Part shown: positions 4,318 through 54,733 of the stretch, in pieces | How the letters are laid out: each line of letters opens with the position of its first letter | Numbering within the stretch: position 1 is the first letter of the stretch | DNA from: Halorussus salilacus | GTDB lineage: Archaea; Halobacteriota; Halobacteria; Halobacteriales; Haladaptataceae | Length of the DNA: 64,000 nucleotides | Direction: 5' to 3' | Assembly: GCF_024138125.1 (NCBI RefSeq) | Contig: NZ_CP099993.1 | Span: 1,364,001 to 1,428,000 of the forward strand | Translations under genes and position numbers: made by a program | The notes under the pieces: model-generated | What the model was told of the DNA's origin: nothing | What the model saw: only the letters and a program-made list of their open reading frames with translations | Databases searched by the model: none

Positions 4318-6405
4318 ATGAGCGAACAGCAAGAGCGGACCGAGACCATCTGCCCCTACTGCGGGGTCGGCTGTGGCCTCGCGCTCACCGAGGGGGACGA
4401 GGAGGGCGACGTGCGGTTGGCCCGCTGGAACGATGCGCCGGTCAACGGGGGCGCGCTCTGTATCAAGGGCGGGGCCGCGACGCAGGTGGTGAACCACGAG
4501 GACCGGCTGACCGAGCCGCTGATTCGGGAGGACGGGGAGCTCCGGGAGGCGACGTGGGACGAGGCGCTGTCGGTGGTGGCCGACGAGCTCGGGCGCATCC
4601 GCGAGGACCACGGCCCGGACGCGACGGGCTTTTTCGCCTCCTCGCAGGTGACCAACGAGGAGAGCTACCTCGTCCAGAAGCTCGCGCGCCAGTACGGGAC
4701 CAACAACGTCGACAACTGCACTCGGCTCTGTCACGCCTCGACCGTCGCGGCGCTCGGCGAGAGCCTCGGCATGGGCGCGATGACCAACAGCATGCAGGAC
4801 CTCCGCGAGTCGGCCGACGTCTACTGGATTCAGGGCGCGAACCCCGCGGAGAACCACGTCATCGCCCACAGCAACTACTTCCGGAAGGCCGCGGAGGACG
4901 GCACCTTCGTCGTTCAGGTCGACCCCCACGAGAACGAGACCACCGACGACGCCGACCTCCACCTCCGGCTGAAGCCCGGGACCGACATCCCCCTGCTGAA
5001 CGCGGTCCTCGCGACGATTCTGGAGGAGGGGTGGCACGACGAGGAGTTCGTCGCCGAGCGGACCGAACACTTCGAGTCGCTGCGAGCCCGCCTGGAAGGC
5101 TTCGACAGGGAGCGGGCGGCCGAGATCGCGGGCGTGTCGCTGGCCGACATCGAGCGCGCCGCCGAGGCGTACGCCACCGCCGACGGCGCCGCCATCTTCA
5201 CCGGGATGGGGATGAGCCAGCACACCTGCGGGACCGACAACGTCCAGAACCTCATCAACCTCGCGCTGGCGACCGGCAACCTCGGGCGACCCGGGACCGG
5301 CGTGAACCCCCTCCGCGGGCAGAACAACGTCCAGGGCACCTGCGACGTGGGTGCCCTGCCGAACGTCCTGCCCGGCTATCTGTCGGTCGACGACGAGGAG
5401 GCCCGCGAGCGCGTCGAGGACGTGTGGGGATTCGAGGTCCCCGACGAACCCGGACTCACCAACGTCGAGATCACCCACGGCGCGGGCGAGGAGATTCGGG
5501 GGCTGTACGTGGTCGGCGAGAACCCGGTGATGAGCGAGCCCAACAGCTCGAAGACCGAGGAGTGTCTCGGAGAACTGGATTTCCTCGCGGTTCAGGACGT
5601 CTTCCTGACCGAGACCGCGGAACTCGCCGACGTCGTCCTCCCGGCGACCTCGTGGGCCGAGCGCGGGGGCACCGTCACCAACACCGACAGGCGCGTCCAG
5701 CGGATGCGCGCGGCCACCCGCGTGCCGGGCAACACGAGACACGACTTCGAGATTCTGACCGAAGTCGGCCGTCGCCTCTTCGAATCCGGCTGGGAGTTCG
5801 ACGACCCGGAGGACGTGTTCGAGGAGTTGCGCGAGGTGTGTCCCATCTACCGGGGCATCAGCTACGACCGCCTCGGCACGGAGGGCCTCCAGTGGCCCTG
5901 CTACGACGAGGACGACGAGGGCGAACCCTACCTCTACGCCGAGTCGTTCGAGACCGAGAACGGACTCGGGAAGTTCCGCGCGGTCTCCCACCAGCCGCCC
6001 GCGGAGGTCGAGGACGAGGAGTACCCGTTCGTGCTCTCGACCGGGCGGATCGAACAGCACTACAACTCCGGGGCGATGAGCACGCGCTCGGAGACCCTGA
6101 TGCGGGTCGTCCCGGAGAACTTCGTGGAGATACACCCGGAGGACGCCGAACCGCTGGGCATCGAGGACGGCCAGCGCGTGGTCGTCTCCTCGCGGCGCGG
6201 CGAGGTCGAACTGACCGCCGACGTGACCGACGGCGTCAAGCCGGGGGTCATCTGGTCGACGCCCCACTTCCCCGACGCCCCCATCAACAAGCTGACGAAC
6301 GACGCGCTCGACCCCGAGGCGAAGATTCCGGAGTACAAGGCCGCGGCGGGCAGGATGGAGGTGGCCCTGCGTCCCGCGGAGGGGAGTGCGGGAAGCGCAG
6401 ATTAG
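4318..6405 (+). CDS. fdhA: Formate dehydrogenase-type molybdopterin oxidoreductase, catalytic subunit
   Basis: This 695-residue protein has an N-terminal 4Fe-4S site CPYCGVGC plus Cys48 (C12, C15, C19, C48). The molybdopterin domains follow, with the FDH signature NNVDNCTRLCHAS; Cys138 takes the position of the Mo-ligand Sec/Cys. Further landmarks are GMGMSQHTCGTDN, PLRGQNNVQGTCD and the C-terminal cap LSTGRIEQHYNSG. No signal peptide is visible, so it is likely cytoplasmic. Formate is oxidised to CO2. No FdhB or electron-transfer subunit is adjacent, so its electron acceptor is unknown. It converges on formate-tetrahydrofolate ligase 62 bases downstream, which supports a formate role over nitrate reductase. 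Confidence 0.85.
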   Translation: MSEQQERTETICPYCGVGCGLALTEGDEEGDVRLARWNDAPVNGGALCIKGGAATQVVNHEDRLTEPLIREDGELREATWDEALSVVADELGRIREDHGPDATGFFASSQVTNEESYLVQKLARQYGTNNVDNCTRLCHASTVAALGESLGMGAMTNSMQDLRESADVYWIQGANPAENHVIAHSNYFRKAAEDGTFVVQVDPHENETTDDADLHLRLKPGTDIPLLNAVLATILEEGWHDEEFVAERTEHFESLRARLEGFDRERAAEIAGVSLADIERAAEAYATADGAAIFTGMGMSQHTCGTDNVQNLINLALATGNLGRPGTGVNPLRGQNNVQGTCDVGALPNVLPGYLSVDDEEARERVEDVWGFEVPDEPGLTNVEITHGAGEEIRGLYVVGENPVMSEPNSSKTEECLGELDFLAVQDVFLTETAELADVVLPATSWAERGGTVTNTDRRVQRMRAATRVPGNTRHDFEILTEVGRRLFESGWEFDDPEDVFEELREVCPIYRGISYDRLGTEGLQWPCYDEDDEGEPYLYAESFETENGLGKFRAVSHQPPAEVEDEEYPFVLSTGRIEQHYNSGAMSTRSETLMRVVPENFVEIHPEDAEPLGIEDGQRVVVSSRRGEVELTADVTDGVKPGVIWSTPHFPDAPINKLTNDALDPEAKIPEYKAAAGRMEVALRPAEGSAGSAD

Positions 6406-16872: not shown

Positions 16873-17007
16873 GAAAGCCCCCGGACGCTGAACCCGCCGG
16901 GACTCGTTGCGCGCCGCGTTCCGGGCATGCGGCGCTCCGCGCCGTTCCGGGCTTTCGCGGTGCTTACTTCGTCCGGGCGGGATTCAGCGCCCGGCCCCTT
17001 TCAGTCC
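16873..17007. repeat. Long stem-loop repeat, copy 2 (divergent interior)
   Basis: It starts GAAAGCCCCCGGACGCTGAA and ends TTCAGCGCCCGGCCCCTTTC then AGTCCC, so it is inverted relative to copy 1. The end motifs are shared but the interior stems (CCCGCCGGGACTCG..., GTTCCGGGCATGC) differ from the other copies. Confidence 0.65.
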
Positions 17008-53477: not shown

Positions 53478-53610
53478 ACGTGTGGGAACGGAGCCCTCTT
53501 TCATAGGTTTCATGGATGGAAAAATGACCGTTTGAGTTATCGTGCGCCCGCTTGCCAGTGGACACTAAGACCGTAACCCCTATTAGTGGAACCGGCCAAC
53601 GTAGAGTTGA

Positions 53611-53683
53611 GTCCTGGTAGGGTAGTGGACTATCCTATTGGCTTGCGGAGCCAGTGACCGGAGTTCAAATCTCCGTCAGGACG
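53611..53683 (+). tRNA. tRNA-Arg (anticodon GCG)
   Basis: The 73-base gene folds as acceptor GTCCTGG/TCAGGAC with discriminator G, D-arm GGGT/ATCC, anticodon stem TTGGC/GCCAG with loop TTGCGGA (anticodon GCG at positions 34-36, reading CGC), variable loop TGAC, and T-arm CGGAG-TTCAAAT-CTCCG. CCA is not encoded. No intron is seen. Its 3' end from GAGTTCAAATCTCC on is the founder sequence of the following tandem array. Confidence 0.92.
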
Positions 53684-54485
53684 TTTTCGCGGCGCAACAA
53701 CGACGAGCGAAGCGAGGAGTCTGCGCCGCGAAGCTCCATCGCGGAGATTTGAGCAGACGAGTCGCACGCCCGGAACGGCCCGCAGGGCCGCACGCCCGGA
53801 CCGTCTCGGCGAGTTCAAATCTCCGTCAGGACGTTTTCACGGAACCGACCCGCGAGAGCCGTCTACGGCTCTCGCACGGTGTGGAGTGAAAACTCCACTG
53901 CGGAGATTTGAGCAGGGAAGTCGCACGCCCGGAAGCGCAACGAAGTGAGCATCCCGGAACGTCTTCACGAGTTCAAATCTCCGTCAGGACGTTTTCACGG
54001 AACCGACCCGCGAGAGCCGTCTACGGCTCTCGCACGGTGTGGAGTGAAAACTCCACTGCGGAGATTTGAGCAGGGAAGTCGCACGCCCGGAAGCGCAACG
54101 AAGTGAGCATCCCGGAACGTCTTCACGAGTTCAAATCTCCGTCAGGACGTTTTCGCGGCGCAACGACGACGAGCGAAGCGAGGAGTCTGCGCCGCGAAGC
54201 TCCATCGCGGAGATTTGAGCAGACGAGTCGCACGCCCGGAACGGCCCGCAGGGCCGCACGCCCGGACCGTCTCGGCGAGTTCAAATCTCCGTCAGGACGT
54301 TTTCGCGGAGCAAGGCCGCGAGAACCCTCTGTGGTTCTCGCACGACTGCGGAGTGAAAACACCACTGCGGAGATTTGAGCAGACGAGTCGCACGCCCGGA
54401 ACGGCCCGCAGGGCCGCACGCCCGGACCGTCTCGGCGAGTTCAAATCTCCGTCAGGACGTTTTCATGGAACCGACCCGCGAGAGC
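53661..54485 (+). repeat. tRNA-Arg 3'-end tandem array (five units plus a partial sixth)
   Basis: A 28-base repeat (starting GAGTTCAAATCTCCGTCAGG) occurs at 53661 (inside the tRNA), 53811, 53969, 54127, 54277 and 54437. It covers the T-arm, 3' acceptor strand, discriminator and five bases of trailer. Unit lengths are 150, 158, 158, 150 and 160. Each complete unit also holds an inverted T-arm core CGGAGATTTGAG at offset 81 or 90-91 (53742, 53901, 54059, 54208, 54368). Between these lie hairpin modules of a few types. The sixth unit breaks off near 54485. There is no gene in this stretch that I would accept. Confidence 0.9.
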
Positions 54486-54598
54486 TATCTCGACGGCTAG
54501 AACGACGAGGACGACGAGGACAGCGACGGGACCCGGACCTCGTTTCTCCGGCGCGTACCGCTCGCACGTCACCGATGAGACCGCGCGGCACCGCAACG

Positions 54599-54733
54599 GC
54601 CACACGCCTCCCCAGCCGATTCCCTCGTTCGCGCCTCCGGCGCGTCACTCGGTCATCCCTCGCGCGCTGGTGGCGCGGCTCAAACCACGAGCCGCGCCAG
54701 CGCGCGCCGGAAGACAAACCGCGTCTTCCGAGC
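54599..54733 (+). repeat. Second dispersed repeat, copy A
   Basis: CCACACGCCTCCCCAGCCGA opens a stretch with CCCTCGCGCGCTGGTGGCGC, CTCAAACCACGAGC and CGGAAGACAAACCGCGTCTT. The same blocks in the same order occur at 60706-60848. Both copies lie beside the GACTGAAA end of a long stem-loop repeat. No protein-coding potential is convincing. Confidence 0.65.

Follow-up and report, generated by a model that had tools for sequence, protein, structure and literature searches.

An apparently undescribed tRNA-linked hairpin element in a mosaic repeat array of Halorussus salilacus and across the class Halobacteria

INTRODUCTION

What are the tandem, mosaic units that directly follow the tRNA-Arg(GCG) gene of the haloarchaeon Halorussus salilacus, and how do they come to exchange their parts? 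The array lies in a 64,000-nucleotide stretch of contig NZ_CP099993.1 (hereafter the window), whose source genome we designate G000. A first-pass annotation described units made of three left and two right module types, exchanged at an inverted core, and suggested that breakpoints be located by comparing units among strains. According to the available text of PMC8371274, archaeal integrases prefer the 3′ ends of tRNA genes.

RESULTS

Organization of the array behind tRNA-Arg(GCG)

The array comprises five units in the order A-x, B-y, B-y, A-x, C-x (150, 158, 158, 150, and 160 bp), followed by a truncated sixth start (Table 1). Exact copies of the cores and the identities of the modules confirmed this order, truncated B-like start included, as it was originally read, and the three module hairpins named at that time are all present. 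The direct core GAGTTCAAATCTCCGTCAGGACGTTTTC is 28 nt long and consists of the last 23 nt of tRNA-Arg(GCG) plus 5 nt of trailer, TTTTC, its first copy sitting within the tRNA gene itself. The inverted core CGGAGATTTGAGCAG is an inverted copy of the T-arm of the same tRNA. Together with both T-arm flanks, the right module forms a conserved imperfect hairpin, which we named R.

Left module A is found in units 1 and 4, B in units 2 and 3 (identical), and C in unit 5. The three types can be distinguished, but B and C are related (78% alike), whereas A is only 52 to 58% alike to either. Right modules x (units 1, 4, and 5) and y (units 2 and 3) are each identical between units and distinguishable from one another, but they are variants of one structure (72% alike). 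Given these values, the left modules fall into two families, and the right modules form a single family that has variants.

When folded as single strands with DNA energies, the segments made of inverted core, R, and direct core gave z values of -3.4 to -4.1, and none of 200 shuffles was as good. Left module C gave a z value of -2.1 (A and B, Table 1). The six adjacent proteins that were compared with Pfam included a histone-fold, an OB-fold/RPA-like, a DUF309, and an epimerase protein and two without a Pfam match; no integrase was found among these six, and units of 150 to 160 bp leave no room for an integrase gene. Just 3′ of the array, at 54540 to 54700, a GC-rich, hairpin-laden stretch matches dozens of places in the genome and represents an unrelated dispersed repeat.

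Table 1. Features of the array and its host tRNA gene (positions in the window)
Feature	Positions	Strand	Basis
tRNA-Arg (anticodon GCG), host gene with repeated 3′ end	53611..53683	+	ARAGORN; Rfam RF00005, 52.4 bits
Direct core copy 1, within tRNA gene	53661..53688	+	Exact match
Left module A (unit 1), hairpin	53689..53741	+	DNA fold z -1.3
Inverted core 1, CGGAGATTTGAGCAG	53742..53756	+	Exact match
R element 1 (right module x, both T-arm flanks)	53746..53821	+	CM R1, 101.9 bits, E 1e-24
Direct core copy 2	53811..53838	+	Exact match
Left module B (unit 2)	53839..53900	+	Fold z -5.7
R element 2 (right module y)	53905..53979	+	CM R1, 60.2 bits; inverted core 53901-53915
Direct core copy 3	53969..53996	+	Exact match
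Left module B (unit 3), same as unit 2	53997..54058	+	Identity comparison
R element 3 (right module y)	54063..54137	+	CM R1, 60.2 bits; inverted core 54059-54073
Direct core copy 4	54127..54154	+	Exact match
Left module A (unit 4), 98% to unit 1	54155..54207	+	Identity comparison
R element 4 (right module x)	54212..54287	+	CM R1, 101.9 bits; inverted core 54208-54222
Direct core copy 5	54277..54304	+	Exact match
Left module C (unit 5), 78% to B	54305..54367	+	Identity comparison
R element 5 (right module x, C-x mosaic), same as R elements 1 and 4	54372..54447	+	CM R1, 101.9 bits; inverted core 54368-54382
Direct core copy 6, distal end of the array	54437..54464	+	Exact match
Truncated B-like start, ATGGAACCGACCCGCGAGAGCT	54465..54486	+	By eye

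R follows many tRNA genes across the class Halobacteria

Genome searches with the array sequence led to spots just 3′ of other tRNA genes, where a common plan recurs: the tRNA tail, a trailer hairpin, the inverted T-arm of the same tRNA, R, and a second tail copy. A covariance model of R (R1, 76 positions) was built from 12 x-type elements, so that its matches are biased to x. In G000, R1 found 23 places, 21 full-length and 2 partial. All 21 full-length elements stand behind tRNA sequence (five behind Arg-GCG, two behind Val-CAC, and one behind each of 14 others, one of these being a displaced tRNA-Glu part), and the two partial matches fall in another repeat. At an E value of ≤1e-4, R1 matched 250 of 292 genomes and 68 of 77 genera of the class Halobacteria. 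A sample of the phylum yielded matches in 19 of 148 genomes, all 19 in Halobacteriales, the 129 unmatched genomes comprising 5 listed as Halobacteriales, 15 listed outside the order, and 109 with no kinship given. Weak matches are mostly real: of 20 matches from 12 weak-scoring genomes, 17 have a same-strand tRNA upstream. The same holds for 28 of the best 29 loci outside G000 (L115 to L143), the remaining one lying at a contig end.

An exact pattern of the R core retrieved 89 stretches from GTDB genomes; the 80 listed of these 89 are all haloarchaeal by title. In this set, which favors well-kept cores, 67 of 84 exact matches (one viral contig included) have a same-strand tRNA at most 900 nt upstream, covering 21 tRNA species. 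By reading, the other 17 divide into 7 that retain flanks from the T-arm and 10 inner cores that stand free within a different dispersed repeat. The orientation of R toward the tRNA is fixed in the linked cases. Inner R cores also occur away from any tRNA context at 16917 to 16957 of the window (minus strand) and at G000:C1:2353538-2353578, both in or near a dispersed repeat containing GACTGAAAGGGGC, a combination that recurs in other haloarchaea. Tandem arrays of the same design were seen behind other tRNA genes and in other genera, namely at L203 (tRNA-Glu, HArc-gm2), L172 (tRNA-Asp, Natribaculum), and L132 (tRNA-Tyr).

At gathering scores, Rfam 15 matched only tRNA and archaeal RNase P in the whole window, and a search of 53600 to 54700 up to an E value of 1 returned tRNA, one subthreshold match on the tRNA itself, and nothing else. 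No description of the R family was found in the available text of open-access papers, including PMC3119063, PMC8371274, PMC8044849, and PMC5217627, the available text of PMC8044849 containing nothing on tRNA. The array thus looks like one visible case of a widespread, apparently undescribed tRNA-linked element.

Carriers and movers of R

R had no match in phages; on plasmids it was represented by two partial inner-core matches, both on Haladaptatus plasmids, and the viral contigs held a single R, itself located behind a tRNA. No autonomous element carrying R was found among the phages, plasmids, and viral contigs searched. At ~383,050 and 418,576 to 418,650 of G000:C1, a displaced 3′ part of tRNA-Glu(CTC) with R was observed ~35 kb from the intact tRNA-Glu(CTC); the two have 44 nt in common, and an integrated element probably lies between them. 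Upstream of position 5581 at L219, an integrated element seems to end beside a tRNA tail copy, with a putative integrase gene recognized by eye and R outside. We regard it as highly improbable that the units are what remains of attachment sites after proviruses or plasmids had integrated into these tRNA genes. The tail copy does look like an attR site, and integrated elements seem to be present in the same tRNA genes (L219, L221, and tRNA-Glu in G000), but in these cases R is not part of the integrated element and instead follows the displaced piece of the tRNA, and the phage and viral searches speak against this origin as well.

The units could also be small mobile repeats moved in trans by a hairpin-reading transposase, of the IS200/IS605 Y1 type or the mover of SMR-A, and inner R cores are indeed found free in another dispersed repeat. 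Size and hairpin form recall the SMRs, which likewise insert into palindromes but are reported to do so without target duplication (available text of PMC3119063). Among 97 genomes, however, the presence of Y1 transposases and that of R were independent (Fisher p 1.0, Spearman -0.005), so that the Y1 link of REP/IS200-IS605 (RAYT) repeats does not extend to R; one genome (G105) has 12 R matches and no Y1, and another (G031) has 10 Y1 matches and no R. Such transposition is very unlikely in our view. The integron integrase model TIGR02249 exceeded its cut-off in none of 97 class genomes, and its weaker matches in 75 of them are what would be expected for tyrosine recombinases in general.

R is a covarying hairpin whose base tracks the host tRNA

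In 132 aligned matches (115 distinct), the R stems are paired in 99.2% of 1,704 cells, and in 15 of the 16 pairs both partners have changed. Covariation, calculated on an alignment fitted to the structure of the model, reached 0.283 compared to 0.068 after shuffling; none of 500 shuffles reached any of five measures, and sliding the alignment destroyed the signal. Of the 84 core matches, 8 could not be parsed; 63 of the other 76 retain a T.T mismatch inside the helix that varies most. The length of the tip differs widely, from a few bases to dozens. The base stem follows the T-loop variants of the host tRNA (TCGAATC, TCAATTC, TCGAGTC, TCGACTC, and TCGAGCC), with 710 of 805 Watson-Crick cells versus a permuted maximum of 682. 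Where the T-loop is odd, as in TTCAATTC (Gly-CCC), GAATTGA stands opposite. Chance or an ordinary low-complexity repeat is ruled out by the exact copies, the R matches, the covariation, and the folding.

R could in principle act as RNA. In this case it would belong to a lengthened pre-tRNA trailer, and base pairing of the inverted T-arm with one or the other T-arm copy would affect how the tRNA matures or decays. This role would fit the strong covariation and conserved mismatch of R, the constant direction in which R faces the tRNA, and the way its base stem varies with the tRNA sequence. Nonetheless, TTTTC, a likely transcription stop, stands after every tail copy in the window, the number of units drops to zero in some congeners, and no Rfam family was matched. 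In addition, wobble cells showed no clear strand preference: the 32 distinct stem sets, obtained from 115 elements after removal of 64 duplicates and of 19 elements that could not be parsed, gave 7 G.T versus 5 A.C. Overall, a role as RNA seems quite unlikely. A bulge-helix-bulge motif was also considered by eye and rejected, as the spacing does not fit.

The stems are partly tied to the tRNA locus. Among 62 elements, identical stems were found in 31 of 110 pairs from the same tRNA and different genera, against 171 of 1,661 pairs differing in both; the inner motif is partly tied to both genus and locus. This partial locus specificity points to prolonged vertical inheritance and away from frequent hopping.

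The duplicated tail is sharply bounded and an unoccupied site is found in a congener

In 47 first units, selected for good cores and a recognizable T-loop, the duplicated tail always starts 0 to 5 nt left of T54 (median, 2). It ends at the annotated 3′ end of the tRNA (median, 0), 38 of the 47 reaching position -2 or beyond. Within this set, the duplication typically spans G53/T54 through the 3′ end of the tRNA. On a simple reading, units would join at G53|T54, and selection would preserve only nucleotides 54 to 73, since these come to form the end of the tRNA; the sequence beyond this part of the unit would be free to differ.

The tRNA-Arg(GCG) locus holds 0 to 5 complete units in 18 Halorussus genomes. 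At least one unit was recognized in 14 of the 18 by reading and in 13 by a regular expression, which missed the variant tail of G005 (one unit). G003, with no unit, offers an empty site for comparison with an occupied one: over 152 positions that extend into the next gene, 140 are identical between its sequence and the flank that follows the final tail copy of G012, which has two units. Comparisons with G007, G002, and G004 were poorer, with 47, 132, and 60 identical positions and long gaps or short overlap.

We tentatively favor the interpretation that the array is made of noncoding, tRNA-restoring DNA insertion units in which R serves as a folded recombination site. Each unit would consist of a copy of tRNA nucleotides 54 to 73, the trailer and left hairpin, the inverted T-arm, hairpin R, and G53, and would have entered the tRNA at or beside G53|T54. 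Its first 20 nt would then replace the 3′ end of the tRNA, which would stay functional. The T-arm and its inverted copy may form the base of R folded as a strand in the cell, providing a site for a putative recombinase much as the folded strand of an integron attC is read. Counted in favor of such insertion are the sharply bounded tail, the covariation of R, its tracking of the T-arm, the tRNA linkage, the fixed orientation, the variable unit number (0 to 5) at the Arg-GCG locus, and the G003/G012 flank. Against it stand the partial locus specificity of the stems, the negative searches for a recombinase and a carrier, and the free inner cores that make up 10 of the 84 core matches; a 150-bp circle would, moreover, be an unusually small recombination substrate.

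Modules are exchanged at the inverted core and within stems

Among 20 Arg-GCG units from 13 Halorussus genomes (G005 omitted), 31 of 190 unit pairs are alike in one module and unlike in the other. Of these, 28 have low left and high right identity, some of the low left values coming from units with extra nested inserts (G014, G010, and G009). The other three, all between species, are 89 to 92% alike on the left and 60 to 64% on the right. Left and right modules therefore assort independently, and exchange at the inverted core, deduced at first from the joining of C to x, is real and recurrent in the genus. However, exchange is not confined to that core, since G009 combines the outer stem of x with the tip of y, and in left modules the tip varies above a constant base stem. 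At L203 (tRNA-Glu, another genus), where unit types alternate, one left module is seen by eye to be joined to two different right modules. Module exchange is frequent, both at the inverted core and at inner stem levels. A second insert type following the same logic with another core, in which a simple hairpin is flanked by the acceptor strand in direct and inverted copy (CTCCGTCAGGACG / CCTGACG), was seen behind tRNA-Arg(GCG) at L116, L119, L122, L124, L126, L128, and L131 and in G014, G010, and G009.

The breakpoint test proposed in the first-pass annotation cannot separate site-specific from homologous exchange. Modules of different type share hardly any identical sequence other than the cores, so that homologous recombination would place breakpoints there too, and it explains exchange at the inverted core equally well. 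The units could then be old, vertically inherited repeats shuffled solely by homologous recombination, unequal crossing-over, and gene conversion, with R tolerated or useful to the host. Modules A and C are only 55 to 58% alike, which leaves breakpoints little choice but the cores; units 2 and 3 are adjacent and identical, R stems are partly locus-specific across genera, and exchanges also occur within R and within left modules. This purely homologous history is a serious possibility, although we lean against it: it leaves unexplained why the duplicated tail starts at G53/T54 in so many tRNA kinds and genera and why the inverted copy of R tracks the T-arm of each tRNA. Under the insertion interpretation that we favor, identical cores would, once in place, permit duplication, loss, and swapping of units and modules, whether through the putative recombinase or through ordinary homologous recombination.

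DISCUSSION

That the cores are derived from the tRNA and that the right module belongs to a widespread structured element reframes the mosaic finding. Integron attC sites are imperfect hairpins with a conserved base stem, a conserved mismatch, a variable tip, and a junction beside G|TT, and they occur in arrays of units. R likewise is an imperfect hairpin with conserved unpaired positions and a variable tip that ends each unit, and the junction of the array units adjoins G|TT. Unlike integrons, the array comes without an IntI above cut-off (0 of 97 genomes) and without cassette genes, its base stem is specific to the host tRNA, and exchange also takes place at the inner core. This last point counts against an attC-like model, under which exchange would be expected at the direct core and not at the inverted one. 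The R′ box of integrons has the consensus GTTRRRY, which the GTTCRAAT-like core of R does not match. We consider it unlikely that Halobacteria possess an integron-like system of gene-free cassettes, with an attC-like hairpin and a base copied from the tRNA, that would enter the T-arm at G53|T54 and rebuild the tRNA through an unrecognized recombinase. A loose analogy would be the growth of CRISPR arrays, in which every added unit brings a further copy of the repeat, with a Cas1-type integrase acting at the tRNA end as the counterpart.

The tyrT/rtT repeats of Escherichia coli are likewise tandem repeats that follow a tRNA gene and include its 3′ end in every copy, at one locus in enterobacteria; a literature search on them returned nothing relevant. 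The array shares their tandem tRNA-tail repeats, but we know of no class-wide hairpin or T-arm tracking in tyrT/rtT. An archaeal palindrome found behind about half of tRNA genes (CGTTA-N9-TAACG, ~10 bp downstream) is likewise tRNA linked; unlike R, it is short and, in the available text of its description, comes without a tRNA tail copy. Integrative elements of tyrosine recombinases duplicate the tRNA 3′ end at their far boundary and leave the tRNA intact, as the units do (available text of PMC8371274). The array units differ from them in being ~150 bp long, gene-free, and tandem, with an internal inverted T-arm and hairpin R, and the integrase gene carried inside such elements is absent. SMR-A/B, PATEs, and MITEs of Haloquadratum are, like R units, short, noncoding, hairpin-rich, and haloarchaeal; they target other mobile elements, and the mover of the SMRs is described as unknown (available text of PMC3119063). 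Whereas the SMRs reside in mobile elements and lack target duplication in that text, R is linked to tRNA genes and accompanied by a 20-nt copy of their tail, and, compared with a MITE, the termini of R units are T-arm copies of the local tRNA. The R family hence resembles integrons, integrated elements, REP/IS200 repeats, and SMRs, but in each case lacks at least one feature that was tested as a mark of membership.

Across almost an entire archaeal class, numerous tRNA genes are thus followed by a structured, very strongly covarying element that appears to be unannotated. If the insertion interpretation is true, DNA machinery would rebuild essential tRNA genes at one exact junction, which would partly explain why tRNA genes are hot spots. 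If R instead acts as RNA, it would represent a new class of tRNA-linked RNA. Both interpretations are directly testable in culturable haloarchaea.
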